Positions 3,163-12,623 of a stretch of DNA of 64,000 bases are shown piece by piece (within the stretch, counting starts at the first letter, position 1; each line of letters opens with the position of its first letter). The DNA comes from an uncultured Lactobacillus sp. Lineage in GTDB: Bacteria > Bacillota > Bacilli > Lactobacillales > Lactobacillaceae. The notes beneath the pieces were generated by a model. It was not told the origin of the DNA. It made no database searches and was given only the letters and a program-made list of their open reading frames with translations. The stretch covers positions 1 to 64,000 of the forward strand of contig CAMKZU010000007.1 in assembly GCA_946477855.1 (NCBI GenBank), written 5' to 3'. Both the position numbers and the translations under genes were made by a program.

Positions 3163-4299
3163 TTATTGAATAAACAAATCCAAATCCATATTTTCATAGT
3201 CCGCTTCGGTAAAATCCGTAGCTGTCACACCTAAAAGCCTAATACCATCATTTAAAAATGAACTGGAAATAGGACCAAAAAGATCTTTAGCAACATCATA
3301 TAATTCTAACGGATTATTTGTAGCATGATCAAGTTTACGTCTTTTAGTAACAGTCTTAAAATCACTGTTGCGAATTTTTAAGACAACCGTATTAGCATAA
3401 AAATTACGTTCAATTAGCTTATCGGCCAGATCATTAACGTAATTACGCAAATTTGTCAGTGCGGTTTGCTCACTGTAAACGCTGGGTTCATAGGATCGTT
3501 CAATACCAATAGATTTGCGATTACGCTCGTCGTCGGGAATTACCCGGGATAAATCAATACCATTTGCGTGCTCTGCCATTAAATAACCCATACGGTTGAA
3601 ATGTTTTATTAAATCACGAACATGCATTTTTTGCAAGCCATGTCCTGTAAATACATTCATTTCTGCTAATTTTGCTTGTGTCTTGGGCCCAATGCCATGA
3701 AACTGAGCAATTTTTTGTTTTGCTAAAAATTGCTGCGCTTCTTCGGGCAAAATAATAGTGCGACCAAAAGGCTTCGAATATTCAGAACCCATTTTGGCCA
3801 AAAATTTGTTATAGGTGACACCAAAGGAACAGTTCAGGCCAATTTCTTTTTTTATTTTTTTCTGCAAATTAATTGCAATCTGCAAAGCAGAAGTTACTCC
3901 TAATTTGTTTTCAGTTACATCCAAATAAGCTTCGTCAAGTGCAATAGATTGAACGTTATCAGTAATTTCATGCATCAACTGATGAATTTCTGCAGAAACA
4001 CTATGATATTTCTTAAAATCGGGACTCATAAATACTAGTTTATTTTTGGGTATAAGTCTTAGGGCCTTAATCGATGGCATAGCCGAATGAACGCCATATT
4101 GACGGGCAATATAGTTGGCTGTAGCAACCACACCGTGACCGTGATAATTTCTCGGATCCTGACCTATTACTAGTGCCTTATTTTTCAATTCAGGGTGATC
4201 ACGAGTTTCTACGGAAGCATAAAAAGCATCCATATCAAGGTGAATAATTTTTCTATGTGTATCATTTTTGGGCAGTAAACCGTCGTCAAAGCTATTCAT
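3163..4299 (-). CDS. dinB: DNA polymerase IV (Y-family translesion polymerase)
   Basis: A Y-family DNA polymerase that copies past damaged bases and is error-prone. The catalytic palm motifs are present: DMDAFYASVE near residue 22 and SIALDEAYLD near 118 supply the metal-binding acidic residues. A helix-hairpin-helix follows near 195 (FHGIGPKT), then the little-finger domain. The open frame extends 43 codons further upstream, deep into zwf; I chose the internal ATG at 4299 because the protein then begins MNSFDDGLLPKND just ahead of the conserved region, giving 378 residues, normal for DinB. It overlaps the zwf stop by 8 bases, so coupling with zwf is likely. The C-terminus (LDLFIQ) looks like a beta-clamp-binding peptide. 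Confidence 0.9.
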   Translation of the reverse strand: MNSFDDGLLPKNDTHRKIIHLDMDAFYASVETRDHPELKNKALVIGQDPRNYHGHGVVATANYIARQYGVHSAMPSIKALRLIPKNKLVFMSPDFKKYHSVSAEIHQLMHEITDNVQSIALDEAYLDVTENKLGVTSALQIAINLQKKIKKEIGLNCSFGVTYNKFLAKMGSEYSKPFGRTIILPEEAQQFLAKQKIAQFHGIGPKTQAKLAEMNVFTGHGLQKMHVRDLIKHFNRMGYLMAEHANGIDLSRVIPDDERNRKSIGIERSYEPSVYSEQTALTNLRNYVNDLADKLIERNFYANTVVLKIRNSDFKTVTKRRKLDHATNNPLELYDVAKDLFGPISSSFLNDGIRLLGVTATDFTEADYENMDLDLFIQ

Positions 4300-5740
4300 A
4301 AATCCAGCGCTCTGTCGGTGACTCAAAAATTTTAGCAGCTGACTTAGGACCCATTCTGTATGGTAAATATTGTTCAGGCTCTTGCCCCTGTTCATTTTCC
4401 TTTTGCCATGCTTCTTCAATATGGTCAATAAATTTCCAGTAGTTCTTTAATTCGCTCCAGTGAGTAAAATTGGTTGAATCATTAACAAAAACATCATGTA
4501 GTAAACGTTCATAACCATCTGGCACCTGTTTTTGCTCATCACTTGAAAGTCCGTAACTCAAATTCTCTCGTCTGATGCCAGATTCATTAATTTTTTTACC
4601 ATTAATAGTAATAAAAATCTGCATCTGCGGATCGATAATAATTGAAATGTTATTTGAATGAGCCATGCCATACTGATTCGACATATGTTTTAAAACAATG
4701 TCAATCCTATTTTTCTTTTCTCTCATTTCCTTACCAGTTCTGAAATAAATTGGTAAATCTGCCAGTGGACCCTTTTTAAACTTGACCTCACCGGCTACAA
4801 AAGTTTCGGTATGAGAGTCTTCTGCAACATTGGGTTCTTGACGATAGCCAAATGTAACATCACTGCCGAGATATTGTCCTCTTACAAAATGCCGCTCAAT
4901 TTCGTCTTCGTTAGGAATCACCATGCTGTCTAAAAGTTCTTGCTTTGCCTTGTGGATACTTTGCGAAGTCAGATCTTTAGGTTCCGGCATTGCGAGCAAC
5001 GTAATAATCTGGAAAATGTGGTTCTGTACCATATCGCGCAAAGCTCCTGCTGTTTCGTAATAACCACCTCGAGCCTCAACTCCCAGTTGTTCTGCCAAAG
5101 TGACCTGAACATTTTTAATATTATGATTATTCCAAATATTTTTAATCAAAGGATTGGTCAGCCTCATTGGCAAAATGTTCTGAATCATTTCTTTGCCTAA
5201 GTAATGATCAATCCTAAAAATATCATCTTCAGCAAAAGAAGCAGTTATTCGCTTGTTTAACTCTTCTGCTGTAGCTAGATCACGCCCAAAAGGCTTTTCA
5301 ACAACAATGCGGTTAAAACCTGAGCTGGTTAAATGTTGATCATTAATGTGTTCAGCAATAGTCCCAAAGAATTTAGGAGCCATGGCCATGTAGAAAATAC
5401 GATTTCCCTGTGCACTATAACGATCGTCAAGATCTTGTGCCAAATTTTTCAAAGTTTCATAGTGTTCAACATTTGTCACATCATGAGACTGATAGTAAAA
5501 ATGGCTGGCAAACGCAGCTAAATCATTTTCATCAACTTCATAATGTGTTTCGTGCACAGCGTCACTCACTTGATCGCGCAAATATTCATGTGACCATGGA
5601 CGACGAGCCGTGCCAATCACAGCAAAATTATCGTGAATTAAACCTTGTTCAAATAAATTAAACAGTGCAGGATATAACTTTCTATGAGCTAAATCTCCAC
5701 TCCCACCAAAGATAATCATAATTACCGGAATGTTATTCAT
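4292..5740 (-). CDS. zwf: Glucose-6-phosphate 1-dehydrogenase
   Basis: A 482-residue enzyme that oxidises glucose 6-phosphate to 6-phosphogluconolactone with NADP+, the first step of the oxidative pentose phosphate route. The Rossmann nucleotide-binding motif GGSGDLAHRK is at 12-21, EKPFG at 148-152, and the active-site signature RIDHYLGKE at 176-184 contains the catalytic His and Lys. Full length for the family. It is the first gene of a two-gene overlap with dinB. About 140 bases upstream separate it from yajC, which ends with its own terminator, so zwf probably has its own promoter. Confidence 0.96.
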   Translation of the reverse strand: MNNIPVIMIIFGGSGDLAHRKLYPALFNLFEQGLIHDNFAVIGTARRPWSHEYLRDQVSDAVHETHYEVDENDLAAFASHFYYQSHDVTNVEHYETLKNLAQDLDDRYSAQGNRIFYMAMAPKFFGTIAEHINDQHLTSSGFNRIVVEKPFGRDLATAEELNKRITASFAEDDIFRIDHYLGKEMIQNILPMRLTNPLIKNIWNNHNIKNVQVTLAEQLGVEARGGYYETAGALRDMVQNHIFQIITLLAMPEPKDLTSQSIHKAKQELLDSMVIPNEDEIERHFVRGQYLGSDVTFGYRQEPNVAEDSHTETFVAGEVKFKKGPLADLPIYFRTGKEMREKKNRIDIVLKHMSNQYGMAHSNNISIIIDPQMQIFITINGKKINESGIRRENLSYGLSSDEQKQVPDGYERLLHDVFVNDSTNFTHWSELKNYWKFIDHIEEAWQKENEQGQEPEQYLPYRMGPKSAAKIFESPTERWIYE

Positions 5741-6425: not shown

Positions 6426-7448
6426 TTATTTGTTTGGCAAGGGCAAGCCTAAATGAACGTAAGCTTTCTCAGTGACCATTCTTCCTCTTGGCGTCATTAA
6501 TAAAAAGCCATTTTGCATTAAATATGGCTCGTACAGTGACTGGATAGTTTCAACGTCTTCTCCTGAATTTGCCGCTAAAGTCCTGATTCCTACCGGACCA
6601 CCACGATAATTTTCAATAATCACACGCAAAATTTTGCGATCAGTCTGATTAAGCCCTTCATCGTCAACTTGCAATTGTTGCAGTGAGCTTTTGGTAGTCG
6701 CAAAAGAAATAACTTCTTCTCCTTTGACCTGAGCAAAATCACGCACTCTGCGTAATAACCTGTTAGCCACACGGGGCGTGCCCCTAGATCTGCGTGCTAA
6801 TTCGTGTGCTGCTTGAGGTTCAATATCAATATTAAAAACTTTGCTTGAACGACAAATAATTTTTTCCAGTTCATCAACAGTATAGTACTGCAAGTGTTCC
6901 ACGATACCAAATCGTCCGCGTAAAGGAGCAGAAAGTTGACCGGCTAAAGTAGTTGCGCCAACTAAAGTGAAAGGTGGCAAGGGGACATGAACCGCATGAG
7001 TAGTCTGCCCTTCACCAATCACGATATCAACATAATAGTCTTCCATTGCGGAATAAAGTACTTCTTCAATTGGCTTGGCCAAACGGTGAATTTCATCAAT
7101 AAATAAAATATCACCAGGATTAAGATCAGTTAGCAAGGCAACTAAATCACCAGCCTTTTCAATTGCAGGTCCACTGGTACTTTTTAGGTGGACACCAAGC
7201 TCATTAGCTATTACAAAGGCTAAGGTAGTTTTACCCAGTCCAGGCGGACCATATAATAGAACGTGATCCAGTGCTTCGTCTCTTTTTTTGGCAGCCTTTA
7301 TATAAACTGCCATCTCTTTTTTTACCCGTTTTTGTCCCAAATATTCATCTAGTGTTTGGGGACGCAGTGAAAATTCGGCATGTTCTTCTTCTGAGCCCTG
7401 AACTTCACCAGAAACTATCTCATTTTTATTTTCTGCCAACTGTCTCAC
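6426..7448 (-). CDS. ruvB: Holliday junction branch-migration ATPase RuvB
   Basis: A 340-residue AAA+ motor that, with RuvA, drives branch migration of Holliday junctions. Walker [10 protein letters not shown] is at 67-75, Walker B DEIH at 118-121, sensor 1 at GATT near 165, and an arginine finger in RGRFG near 178. The C-terminal winged helix contains [10 protein letters not shown] and ends with the usual RGR motif (TPRGRMVT). It sits 36 bases downstream of ruvA in the standard gene order and just upstream of yajC. Confidence 0.97.
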
Positions 7449-8074: not shown

Positions 8075-9955
8075 TTAATCTTTCTTAAACATTTTGTGCA
8101 AATCACTTTTTCTTAGGCGCACAATTGCCAAATTACCCTTTGCATCATGATACGGATCAGAAATTTGTCTCAAACTCGTCAAAATTTCGCCACAATCTGC
8201 AGATGTCAGCCTTTTACGTCCAGGAACTTCCCTTTGAGCTTGATCTGCTGCTATTCTTTTAATTAAATTTTGAAAATTGCTGTCATCTACGTTTAAAAAC
8301 GTGTCTAAAATTGTACGCACAGAATGTTCGACATCAGTACCCAGCCAGGTAGGATAGGATCTCAAGATGAAGGTATCTTGCCCAAAATCTTCTAAAAAAA
8401 TACCAATTTTTTGAATATCTGCCAACTTATCTTTTATTTGTAAAAAATCTAAATTGCCAAATTCTAAAATTAAAGGACTTAATAAACCTTGCTGGCTGAT
8501 CTTAGAATTAGACAACTCGAGCATAATCTTTTTAAAAGAAAGCAGTCTTCTGGCGGCAACCTGATCAATTAAATATAAGTCATCATTATTTGTGGCAATA
8601 ATATATATTTTAGTTTGACCCACAAAACTTAATTCGGGTAAACTACTTGCCAGTAATTCATCCCCGGTAGAAATCACTCCGCTACTAGACTGCTTACTGG
8701 TGAAAGGCGTCAACTGACATTGTTTTTTAACATTCTCCGTCCAAGTTGCGGTAATCAGATAACGATCATCATCTCGCGGGGTATCTAAATCTACATACTG
8801 TGTATGTTGAATATGCTGGATTTTTTCAGGTACCGTTTCATTAATTTGGTCAGCTTGAGTTTCAGGTCTTTTAGTTTCAACCACATTTTTATTTAAATTA
8901 AATTTTAACTGATCAACTAAAGTATCTTCTGTAGCATTATTTAAATTGCTGATAGCATCAGATTTTGTTTCACTTTTCAAGAGCACAGTGCTGATTGCAT
9001 TTGTTATTAAACGACTTAATTCAGTTTCTTTGGATAAACGCACCTCCCTTTTTGTGGGGTGCACGTTAACATCTACTAAAAGTGGATCAGTTTTTATCTT
9101 AACCACAGCTATCGGATAATGTTTAGCAGCAAGGTTATTACCATAACCAGCCATCACTGCACTAGCTAATTTAAAATTTCTAATGTACCGACCATTAAGT
9201 AAAATTGAAATAAAATTACGCGTAGATCTGGTAAGTTCAGGGTTAGAAATTAAGCCACTTACCTCAAAATCATTATCATTGCTTTTAAAAGACAACATTT
9301 TTTCCGCAATATTTATGCCATAAACGCTAGAAACCGTTTGCCGTAAATTATTGTTGCCAGCAGTTCTTAGTAATATTCGACCTTCGTTCATCAATGTAAA
9401 TGCAATTTCAGGATAACCTAACGCAATCCGATTAACAATATCCACGATTTTCATAATTTCAGTTCTCGGACTACGTAAATATTTTAATCGCGCCGGTGTG
9501 TTATAAAATAAATCTTTGACTGTAATCTGTGTACCCTTTCTGGCAGCAGCATTTTCCTGTGTTTTCTTAACTCCGCCAGCAAACTCGGCGCGCGTACCTA
9601 TTTCATTAGCAGAATTAGTTAAAATTTCGACATGACTGACTGCAGCAATTGAGGCTAAGGCTTCGCCTCTAAAACCTAATGTATTGACATTAAATAAGTC
9701 ATGCTCATTTGCAATCTTACTGGTCGCATACCTGGTAAAAGCAAGATCAATCTGATCACTATCAATTCCGGAGCCGTTATCTTGAACTACAATTTGCTTT
9801 AAACCGGCATCAGTGAATTCAATTCTTATTCTGCTGCTACCTGCGTCAATTGCATTTTCGACCAGTTCTTTTACCACGCTAGCAGGTCGTTCAATTACTT
9901 CTCCGGCTGCGATCTGATTAGAGAGATTGACAGAAAGCTCATGTATTTTTGCCAT
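8075..9955 (-). CDS. mutL: DNA mismatch repair protein MutL with degenerate endonuclease domain
   Basis: MutL couples mismatch recognition by MutS to strand incision. The N-terminal GHKL ATPase is complete: [38 protein letters not shown] and [11 protein letters not shown] are all present. The C-terminal domain is open to its normal end (HKMFKKD) but has lost its nuclease signature. Where Gram-positive MutL has DQHA(X)2E(X)4E, this protein reads [12 protein letters not shown] at 464-475, so the His and both Glu are Val, Arg and Lys. The ACK-type motif is replaced by [10 protein letters not shown] and the CPHGRP motif by DPYHDAKGN. The family in mutH-less bacteria normally needs these residues for nicking and metal binding. 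The frame is intact, so the gene is likely expressed but without endonuclease activity. Total 626 residues. Confidence 0.93.
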
Positions 9956-9957
9956 GA

Positions 9958-12564
9958 CTAGTTCTCATCCTTTAAATCTTCTTGCCAGTTTTCGACTAAC
10001 TGCATTACTTGCAGCGGCGTCTGATCAGCTAAATAAAGATTAGAAATTTCATCTAAGATATCTTTTTCTTTATCAGTTAATTCATCCTTAGAATCTGATG
10101 GTGTTTCAACAGGAACAGCTTCTTCTGTTTCACTAGCTGAACTAAACAAATCCAGCTGCGTGGAAGCAGGTCCTAAATTACTTCCTTGGGCTTCAAGTCT
10201 ATTAAGCAACTTAGTAGCTTTTCGTAAAACTTTTCGCGGCAATCCAGCAAGTTGTGCTACATGGATGCCATAACTTTGATCAGCTGGTCCTGGTAAAATT
10301 TTATGAAGAAAAATTAATTTACCGTTTTCTTCGGTTGCTCCAACGTGAATATTCTTTAAATGAGACAGTGTCTGTTCCATTGCTGTTAGCTCGTGGAAGT
10401 GCGTCGCAAACAACACTTTAGCACCAACTTCATCGTGCAGATACTGCACAATAGCACCAGCTAGAGCCATGCCATCATAGGTTGCTGTTCCGCGACCAAT
10501 TTCATCAAATAATACTAGGCTCCGCTTGGTTGCATGCTGTAGTGCATCGTTTGCTTCTGTCATTTCGACCATAAAGGTACTTTGACCGGAAATTAAATCG
10601 TCTGCTGCACCAATTCGGGTAAAAATTTGGTCAAAAATCGGCAAGTCAGCACTATCTGCTGGCACAAACGAACCAATTTGAGCCATCACGGCAATAAGCG
10701 CCATTTGTCGCATATAAGTACTTTTCCCTGACATATTAGGACCTGTTATCAGAAAAATGTCCGTATTTTCTGTTAATTTTACATCGTTAGGAATAAAAGA
10801 GCCTGCCTTCATGACCTGTTCAACTACAGGGTGACGGCCCATGATAACTTTAACATCCTGATTATCAGTATGAAATTGTGGTCGGCAGTAATTGTTGTCC
10901 TCGGCAATTTGAGCAAAAGAGCAGAAAACATCGAGCTCTGCCACTTGTCCAGCCAACTTTTGCAAGGCTGGAATATATTTCTTAACTTCTTCTCTTAGTT
11001 TCACAAACAAATCATATTCCAAATCCGTTGATTTGGTCTGTGCTTCTAAAATCAGATTTTCATGCTCTTTAAGTTCAGGTGTAATATATCGTTCAGCATT
11101 GGTCAAAGTTTGCTTACGGGTATAACGATCTGAAGGTACTTTGCCCTTATTCGAGTTTGTAACCTGAATATAATAGCCAAAGACCTTGTTGTAACCTACT
11201 TTTAAATTTTCAATTCCTGTTTTGGCCCGTTCATCCTGTTCCATTTCGGTTAGCCATTTTTTACCATTATTCATGGCATCCCGGTAGCGATCTAATTGAC
11301 TATCAACGCCATCTTTGATTAGCCCTCCCTCAGTGGTCAGAACTGGAGGCTGATCAACAATGGTATCTGTAATTAATTTGGCAATTCCTTTTAACGGATC
11401 AATTTGTCTGGCAAAATTTTGCAGATTTTTATTATCAGCTTTTTGGATTGCTGTCAAAATCGTTGGTACGGCATTGAGAGAATGAGCCAATTGCAATAAC
11501 TCGCGGGCATTGACATTGCCAAAAGCAATTCGCCCAGTTAAACGTTCTAGGTCATAAACCCCTTTAAGAGCATCATTAATATTTTCCCGCGTAAAATATT
11601 CATCAATTAGTGCCTGCACCATTTCCTGCCGTTTATTTAGCCGCTCAACAGATAAGAGTGGCCGAGCTAGCCATTGTTTTAACAATCGTCCACCCATTGC
11701 AGTACGAGTTTTATCCAGAACCCAAAAAAGGGAACCCATTTTTTTGCCGGTTTTCGCAGACGCTGTTAACTCTAAGTTATCCCGTACGGTGTGAGACATT
11801 TGTAAATATTGATTGACTTCATAACTTTTTGCTACTTGTAAGTGGGCTAAACTGCGGCGCTGCGTCTGCAATAAATAACCTACAAGTTGTTTTACAGCAG
11901 CTTTTTCGGCAGAATTAGTTAAATTTTGTTCAGCAAATGAAATCTCTGCATGTTTGCCAGTTAATTCTACGGGCTCTGACACCGTAATATTAGCTTTATG
12001 GAGAAAATCACTATCCTTGTCACTTAAGTGACCATTAAAAACAACTTCGCGTGTTCGCAGCGAAAGCAACTCATTTGAAACAGCAGCAAAACTTTTTAAA
12101 TGTGTAGCGTAAATTTCACCAGTGGATAAGTCACTGTATGCCAGTCCAAAGCAACTTTTGGTAGTTACAACCGATGTAAGATAATTTGATTCTTTAGCTT
12201 CACTGGGCTTGTCATTCATTAAAGTTCCGGGAGTCACAAGTTGAATTATGCCCCGTTTAACCATTCCTTTAGCTTTTTTAGGATCTTCGAGTTGTTCACA
12301 CAAGGCAACCTTATAGCCTTTTTCAACCAAAGTATCTACATAGGATTGGACTGCTACATGCGGAACTCCTGCCATTGGAACAGGGTTTTCAGCTTTATTA
12401 GATCTGTGAGTCAAAGTTAATTCTAAAATTTGAGCACCTTTGACTGCATCATCTTCAAATAATTCATAAAAATCGCCCACCCGATAAAAAAGGAAAGCAT
12501 CGGGATATTGCTTTTTAATTTCGTGATATTGCTCCATCATCGGAGTCAGGTTTGTTTGCGCCAT
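9958..12564 (-). CDS. mutS: DNA mismatch recognition ATPase MutS
   Basis: MutS binds base-base mismatches and small loops and recruits MutL. The mismatch-binding Phe-X-Glu region is clear (FYRVGDFYELFEDDA near residue 26). Walker A GPNMSGKST lies near residue 612 and Walker B FDEIGRGT some 75 residues later, followed by ATHFHEL. A beta-clamp-binding motif QLDLF is near residue 802. The frame extends 7 codons upstream, but the ATG at 12564 has AAGGGG about five bases ahead of it and gives the usual MAQTNLTPMMEQY start, 868 residues. It is the first gene of the mutS-mutL-ruvAB-yajC run. Nothing suggests MutS itself is impaired. Confidence 0.96.
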   Translation of the reverse strand: MAQTNLTPMMEQYHEIKKQYPDAFLFYRVGDFYELFEDDAVKGAQILELTLTHRSNKAENPVPMAGVPHVAVQSYVDTLVEKGYKVALCEQLEDPKKAKGMVKRGIIQLVTPGTLMNDKPSEAKESNYLTSVVTTKSCFGLAYSDLSTGEIYATHLKSFAAVSNELLSLRTREVVFNGHLSDKDSDFLHKANITVSEPVELTGKHAEISFAEQNLTNSAEKAAVKQLVGYLLQTQRRSLAHLQVAKSYEVNQYLQMSHTVRDNLELTASAKTGKKMGSLFWVLDKTRTAMGGRLLKQWLARPLLSVERLNKRQEMVQALIDEYFTRENINDALKGVYDLERLTGRIAFGNVNARELLQLAHSLNAVPTILTAIQKADNKNLQNFARQIDPLKGIAKLITDTIVDQPPVLTTEGGLIKDGVDSQLDRYRDAMNNGKKWLTEMEQDERAKTGIENLKVGYNKVFGYYIQVTNSNKGKVPSDRYTRKQTLTNAERYITPELKEHENLILEAQTKSTDLEYDLFVKLREEVKKYIPALQKLAGQVAELDVFCSFAQIAEDNNYCRPQFHTDNQDVKVIMGRHPVVEQVMKAGSFIPNDVKLTENTDIFLITGPNMSGKSTYMRQMALIAVMAQIGSFVPADSADLPIFDQIFTRIGAADDLISGQSTFMVEMTEANDALQHATKRSLVLFDEIGRGTATYDGMALAGAIVQYLHDEVGAKVLFATHFHELTAMEQTLSHLKNIHVGATEENGKLIFLHKILPGPADQSYGIHVAQLAGLPRKVLRKATKLLNRLEAQGSNLGPASTQLDLFSSASETEEAVPVETPSDSKDELTDKEKDILDEISNLYLADQTPLQVMQLVENWQEDLKDEN

Positions 12565-12623
12565 TATTCCCCTTCTTTTCTGCATTACTGTTATTATTAT
12601 ACGCTAAAGTTCTTATTAAAAGA

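Follow-up and report, generated by a model that had tools for sequence, protein, structure and literature searches.

The mutS-mutL locus

The stretch of DNA analysed here (the window; 64,000 nucleotides of contig CAMKZU010000007.1 from an uncultured Lactobacillus sp.) carries mutS and mutL side by side on the minus strand, the mutS stop codon and the mutL ATG being separated by 2 bases. The features are as follows:

8075..9955, minus strand: mutL coding sequence, 626 aa, stop codon included (open reading frame list and Pfam)
8951..9955, minus strand: N-terminal ATPase region of MutL, residues 1-335, motifs kept (Pfam HATPase_c and DNA_mis_repair)
8078..8623, minus strand: C-terminal domain (CTD), residues 445-626, endonuclease fold without the catalytic residues (MutL_C, AlphaFold2, TM-score)
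8531..8566, minus strand: motif II site, residues 464-475, in place of DQHA(X)2E(X)4E (sequence, alignment)
8546..8548, minus strand: Arg470 at the position of the first catalytic Glu (alignment; of the 70 genus MutLs 67 have Arg, two Lys and one His)
8474..8491, minus strand: β-clamp-binding motif QGLLSP, residues 489-494, kept (alignment)
8222..8251, minus strand: site of the SCK/ACK motif, residues 569-578, motif lost (alignment)
8132..8158, minus strand: CPHGRP site, residues 600-608, reading DPYHDAKGN (alignment with the B. subtilis CTD)
8144..8146, minus strand: Asp604 at the position of the metal-ligand Cys (70/70 in the genus)
9958..12585, minus strand: mutS, 875 aa, intact, directly upstream of mutL (open reading frame list and Pfam)

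The plus strand contains many stops across 8075-9955, i.e. the mutL frame is that of the minus strand. The GHKL ATPase domain and the MutL_C dimerisation domain, both expected of a MutL, are present above the Pfam cut-offs (MutL_C with 90.3 bits vs a cut-off of 25), and the protein is 99% identical to MutL from L. kullabergensis (L002), the source of the window being a Lactobacillus closely related to that species. The CTD can be aligned directly to that of B. subtilis MutL (3GAB/3KDG/3KDK), DQVAA standing opposite DQHAA and DPYHDAKGN opposite DPFTCPHGR. A preliminary description of this DNA had stated that residues 464-475 replace the DQHA(X)2E(X)4E motif, that the ACK-type and CPHGRP motifs are gone as well, that the ATPase motifs are kept in an open frame, and that the adjoining mutS is intact. 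All of this is borne out by the window sequence, the Pfam ATPase domain in the 626-aa minus-strand frame, and the five Pfam domains of MutS, all of which were matched.

Elsewhere in the window, a DinB-like reading frame (3163-4428) and a glucose-6-phosphate-dehydrogenase-like one (4292-5740), both named by eye, overlap by 137 bases as listed, and the true start of the DinB-like frame is probably located further in.

Extent of the motif loss

MutL was found in 71 of 75 Lactobacillus genomes and in all 60 with a completeness of at least 90% and a contamination of at most 5%; the four genomes without a match (G416, G435, G442 and G445) are each fragmented, contaminated or incomplete. The partial MutL of G422, located at a contig edge and containing one stop, was left out. 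Motifs were counted in 70 full-length Lactobacillus MutLs, two from the neighbouring genus g28, which is perhaps Amylolactobacillus, and 52 that represent 31 other genera of the family. These outgroup proteins come mostly from the better-scoring matches, and the lower-scoring genera were covered by a separate search.

The DQHA(X)2E(X)4E motif occurs in 0/70 Lactobacillus MutLs, whereas DQHA(X)2E is kept in 52/52 proteins from the 31 other genera. The catalytic His is replaced throughout the genus (Val in 47, Leu in 16 and other residues in 7 proteins), and the first Glu position is occupied by basic residues. In all 70 proteins Asp replaces the CPHGRP Cys, and none has retained the His of this motif, so that the equivalents of Cys604 and His606 are present in 0/70. 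Both g28 proteins (L090, L091) have lost the motif as well and carry Ala at the Glu position and Ser at the Cys position (2/2 each), the Arg/Asp pair being seen in Lactobacillus alone. The set of His, Glu, Cys and His is intact in 51/52 MutLs from the other genera, which excludes chance as the source of the pattern. DQHAAQERIKYE is kept in 10/10 CTDs that represent six further families of the order, and the motifs are lost in 28/28 named Lactobacillus loci, many of which are the same genomes as among the 70 under other identifiers. The 52nd outgroup gene (L099) retains DQHA..E with CPHGRP in another frame, reflecting a frameshift or an assembly error near the gene end.

The scores of the MutL_C profile follow the same division, with score gaps serving as a proxy for motif loss and the motifs being read solely in the sequences aligned. 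In the family survey (397 genomes) 25 Lactobacillus genomes matched with E values from 2.5e-24 to 2.7e-31, two g28 genomes with 3.3e-25 and 1.9e-27, and 363 others with 2.6e-35 or better, while the 7 genomes without a match all belong to genus g30. In the order survey 294/295 genomes matched, 14 Lactobacillus genomes with 6.0e-26 to 2.7e-31 and every other one with 1.3e-34 or better. The genome without a match in that survey, G625, is from another family and consists of 510 contigs at 89% completeness. Judged from the sequences, the loss is confirmed as genus-wide and common to Lactobacillus and g28. Thus, what had been presented as a feature of this genome is present here and belongs to the whole genus.

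Timing of the loss and constraint on the C-terminal domain

A tree was built by a quick method from the N-terminal domain (NTD) only, with 36 of our 70 Lactobacillus MutLs, two g28 proteins and 32 others as its 70 rows, two long outgroup branches being flagged by the tree program. The motif-less proteins form one side of a single branch (SH-aLRT 100, length 0.57), and g28 is placed beside two Lactobacillus rows with a weak support of 75, which fits both a sister and a nested position. The simplest reading of this tree would be a single loss in the ancestor of Lactobacillus and g28. Mapping the CTD alignment onto the tree, as envisaged in the preliminary description, hence places the genus-wide loss on one branch.

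Within Lactobacillus the CTD evolves faster than the NTD, with a median rate ratio of 1.93 over 2396 pairs that are not independent, as compared to medians of 0.63-0.96 in six nuclease-bearing genera. As dN/dS is nevertheless just 0.104 for the CTD (NTD: 0.052; 83 pairs with dS under 1.5), the constraint on the CTD has been relaxed without being lost. Together with the confident fold described below, this dN/dS of about 0.10 argues against a decaying domain. The single loss on the NTD tree and the purifying selection on the CTD support the earlier view of a long-standing loss without frameshift.

Several elements have been retained. The clamp-binding motif Q..L.P is invariant (70/70 Lactobacillus, 2/2 g28 and 52/52 outgroup MutLs), GFRGEAL is found in 70/70 and DNGxGI, as a strict pattern, in 67/70 Lactobacillus proteins. 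Eight positions of the protein are fixed differences between Lactobacillus and the others (at least 90% in each group), two of them being the exchanges of Glu to Arg and Cys to Asp. Across the 70 proteins 14 of 182 CTD positions are invariant, D604 among them, position 464 is Asp or Glu in 70/70, position 470 is Arg, Lys or His in 70/70, and Asp600 is found in 68/70. MutS is full-length in 67/69 rows, in which some genomes appear under two identifiers, the other two being cut by contig ends; three patterns that we take to be ATPase or mismatch-binding motifs are kept in all 67. The clamp-motif pattern Q[LV][SDA]LF fits 61 of these 67 MutS rows, and 6 do not fit.

Structure of the C-terminal domain

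A model of the CTD was calculated with AlphaFold2 from 21 aligned CTDs, i.e. the window protein and 20 of the 28 named Lactobacillus loci (mean pLDDT 89.1, pTM 0.82). Its eight best structural matches are the eight chains of the B. subtilis MutL CTD, with a top TM-score of 0.87 by query length (3kdk_A), and the TM-score to E. coli MutL (1X9Z) is 0.69. In B. subtilis MutL the motif His and Glu, together with residues of motifs IV and V, bind two zinc ions, according to passages of PMC2965676. In the Lactobacillus protein R470 and D604 may form a salt bridge where the metal would otherwise sit.

Search for a replacement nuclease or partner

A MutH-like protein and a second MutL had both been brought into consideration in the preliminary description, and neither turned up: MutH was found in 0/75 Lactobacillus genomes (of 14 control genomes, only E. 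coli gave a match), and each of 25 Lactobacillus genomes contains one MutL_C gene and no second one. NucS was found in 0/17 genomes, 10 of them from Lactobacillus. RNase HII and Smr gave one match each in every one of 25 genomes (12 Lactobacillus, 1 g28, 12 others), the Smr match lying in a MutS2-sized frame in 24 and in a 203-aa frame in G018. As both occur in and outside Lactobacillus and were not acquired when the motif was lost, they were rejected as newly gained partners.

Published mutation-accumulation data

The strongest evidence on whether repair still operates comes from the mutation rates of two species in a mutation-accumulation study (PMC12691593), in which MutL is not discussed, mutL occurring 0 times in the main text. 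L. acidophilus ATCC 4356, in which mutS is frameshifted, acquires 1.97e-8 substitutions per site and generation with a ratio of transitions to transversions (Ts/Tv) of 30.02, and 6.82e-9 indels, whereas the values for L. crispatus ATCC 33820, the mutS gene of which is intact and for which the authors noted no defect in repair, are 9.01e-10, 1.50 and 4.57e-10 (passages of PMC12691593). From these published figures, the rate of L. crispatus is 22-fold below that of L. acidophilus, and we calculate that transitions are 35.3-fold, transversions 1.76-fold and all indels 14.9-fold more frequent in the latter; the comparison is one across species and not with a same-strain deletion.

In our genome set G403, putatively the genome of L. 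crispatus ATCC 33820, encodes a nuclease-less MutL and a full MutS (865 aa). G398/L154, putatively the L. acidophilus type strain, also encodes a nuclease-less MutL, and its mutS lies in two frames, broken near residue 88 (about 6553-6557), a mutS frameshift being described for this strain in the accessible text of PMC12691593. Since the pattern of transitions, transversions and indels is the signature of mismatch repair, repair would be working in one species and absent in the other. Moreover, repair of a single strand could lower a rate 2-fold at most; transitions that are down about 35-fold would therefore mean that repair reaches both strands.

According to passages of the same study, alkD and adaB have been lost in the lineage of the L. 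acidophilus type strain, and mfd is absent from most of the mutS-less strains as well, so that the L. acidophilus baseline may be inflated. Lactic acid bacteria are described there as having high mutation rates in general. The L. crispatus substitution rate is about 4 times the quoted E. coli rate, and its indel rate is about 3 times that of Lactococcus lactis (4.57e-10 vs 1.48e-10; Lc. lactis substitutions 8.36e-10), with mostly longer indels of mean lengths 9.9 and 21.4 nt.

Substitution spectrum at fourfold sites

Between the window and L. kullabergensis the corrected Ts/Tv at fourfold sites is 0.92 (6422 sites, 1278 changes). The five pairs of the window's clade, including this one, range from 0.92 to 1.47, and a separate count yielded 0.81 and 1.16 for two further pairs. 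Genus g30, probably Oenococcus, served as control without mismatch repair (MMR): its seven genomes (G029, G065, G095, G121, G145, G168, G189) contain no MutL_C match and only weakly match the MutS query, the frames concerned being 794-813 aa long and therefore probably MutS2. Two nearer g30 pairs gave corrected values of 3.12 and 2.65, and three distant, saturated ones (0.61-0.67 different) gave 1.74, 0.34 and 1.57. Nuclease-bearing outgroup pairs lie between 0.47 and 2.36 (13 pairs of that separate count, five of which entered it alone), and 2 of 12 Lactobacillus pairs reach or come near the MMR-less control (3.04 and 2.54). After a rough adjustment for base composition the values are 5.83 and 3.94 for the g30 pairs and 1.94-3.05 for the window's clade; the second control (3.94) is then exceeded by 4 of the 12 Lactobacillus pairs, with values of 4.24-5.37, and by a nuclease-bearing outgroup pair at 4.61.

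The fourfold spectrum thus supports working repair in the clade of the window, without being decisive for the whole genus. Fourfold Ts/Tv proved a weaker indicator of repair than anticipated, the MMR-less g30 pairs giving just 3.12 and 2.65 as compared to 30 in the L. acidophilus experiment, and several Lactobacillus pairs overlapping the control; a binomial test against a fraction of 0.968 is therefore left out of the evidence. In view of the spectrum of the window's clade and of the data of PMC12691593, the mutator lineage considered in the preliminary description is not favoured.

Probable mismatch repair without the canonical MutL nuclease

Lactobacillus seems to repair mismatches without the known nuclease of MutL, and incision might be carried out by another enzyme, at existing nicks or by a rebuilt site. 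In the ancestor of Lactobacillus and g28 the MutL CTD would have lost its metal-dependent nicking site; as sequence and model show, MutL has retained its ATPase, the fold of the CTD and the motif that binds the clamp. Published mutation rates suggest that mismatch repair continues. MutS would detect the mismatch and load MutL, which, tethered to the clamp, may act as matchmaker, and the incision would come from elsewhere, i.e. from an endonuclease recruited by MutL or from pre-existing breaks, with the ends of Okazaki fragments and the cuts that RNase HII makes at ribonucleotides as candidates. Until incision, MutS and the tethered MutL would behave as they do in other bacteria. We consider this combination of a nuclease-less, clamp-tethered MutL, ongoing repair and incision from elsewhere to be probable. 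Of the possibilities raised at the outset, an alternative nicking partner or MutL as matchmaker fits best, although no partner was identified.

Passages of PMC8034640 report that in Caulobacter MutL(D472N) or a clamp-site mutant behaves like a mutL deletion. As a change in the nuclease site thus equals the loss of the whole gene and is normally fatal to the pathway, the Lactobacillus case is a real puzzle. More tentatively, we suggest that the whole genus may perform MutS-dependent repair of both strands without a canonical MutL nuclease site or MutH, either via a nickase docked on the clamp-tethered MutL or via a zinc site rebuilt as an Asp/Arg catalytic site.

Excision directed by 5' ends is known in eukaryotes, and RNase HII is present in all 25 genomes searched, 12 of them Lactobacillus. 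Both lend some credit to a narrower form of our explanation, in which incision occurs at breaks left by replication only and no dedicated nickase exists. We regard this form as unlikely, since Okazaki ends serve the lagging strand only, capping the gain at 2-fold vs the 35-fold seen for transitions, and the frequent leading-strand cuts that it would require are putative. Alternatively, MutL may still nick by means of a different metal site, composed of Asp464, the new Asp604 and Asp600, and the basic residue 470. The conservation of these positions throughout the genus (acidic 464, basic 470 and Asp604 in 70/70 each, Asp600 in 68/70) speaks for such a site, as do the place of D604 among the 14 invariant CTD positions and of both exchanges among the eight fixed differences. 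Furthermore, Asp464 occupies the position of the DQHA Asp, which we assume to be the residue the change of which abolishes repair in Caulobacter, as given in passages of PMC8034640. However, the protein has lost every His and Cys ligand as well as the first Glu, an Arg replacing a metal-binding Glu should repel the metal, R470/D604 would look more like a salt bridge, and g28 shares the loss yet has neither R470 nor D604 (A/A, S/S). A rebuilt site is thus quite unlikely in our view.

It is distinctly improbable that the repair of replication errors was lost and that MutS and MutL were kept for another task, e.g. the rejection of divergent DNA in recombination. The CTD evolving about twice as fast as the NTD, the generally high mutation rates of lactic acid bacteria (passages of PMC12691593) and the MMR-less-like spectrum of some Lactobacillus pairs would agree with such a loss. 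Against it stand the invariant clamp motif, the spectrum of the window's clade, which is unlike that of MMR-less g30, and the repair-null signature (high transitions, 1-nt insertions), which the accessible text of PMC12691593 gives for mutS-frameshifted L. acidophilus and not for mutS-intact L. crispatus. The chance that an assembly artefact or a misread frame underlies the C-terminal sequence, as the preliminary description had allowed, is practically negligible: the window genome is just 66.85% complete, but nothing was found in support of an artefact, and the agreement of 28/28 named loci and 70/70 genus MutLs excludes it. The probable reading hence remains a MutL that is tethered to the clamp as matchmaker, with incision from elsewhere.

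Comparison with known systems and implications

Lactobacillus MutL is a variant of MutL and not a separate kind of protein. With B. subtilis MutL (3GAB, 3KDG, 3KDK) it shares the CTD fold (TM 0.87), the place of the clamp motif and the order of domains, but it lacks the equivalents of His464, Glu468, Cys604 and His606 and has Arg and Asp at the Glu and Cys positions, the B. subtilis numbering being partly assumed by us and partly taken from passages of PMC2965676. As compared to endonuclease-type MutLs in general (B. subtilis, PMS2) it keeps QxxLxP (70/70) without DQHA(X)2E(X)4E, CPHGRP and SCK/ACK.

E. coli MutL, which carries a clamp-binding motif, resembles it in having no nuclease of its own and in the CTD fold (TM 0.69); in E. 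coli, however, MutH makes the cut, and MutH is found in none of the 75 Lactobacillus genomes. The eukaryotic homologues MLH1 and Mlh2 also lack DQHA(X)2E(X)4E, and such motif-less homologues work beside a nuclease-bearing one, whereas each of 25 Lactobacillus genomes has a single MutL_C gene. Human PMS1 is likewise given as lacking the motif in passages of PMC2965676. NucS/EndoMS shares mismatch repair without MutL nicking, but NucS was absent from the 17 genomes searched for it (10 Lactobacillus). If repair indeed continues, the incision mechanism would be unexplained. A loss of the MutL endonuclease in Lactobacillus or Lactobacillales is not reported in the literature covered, outside of which subscription journals and preprints mostly fell, nor in the available portions of PMC3774996, PMC8744996 and PMC3022021.

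As a rule, bacteria that have no MutH can initiate mismatch repair only if MutL has its nuclease. If it is true that a whole genus, which includes well-known gut and dairy species, breaks this rule yet keeps a low, repair-like spectrum, there would be another route for cutting the new strand in bacteria, and Lactobacillus, which offers tractable and safe strains, would allow a direct test of how repair is directed in bacteria without MutH. Finally, the annotation that mutL is present does not reveal which repair mechanism a bacterium uses.
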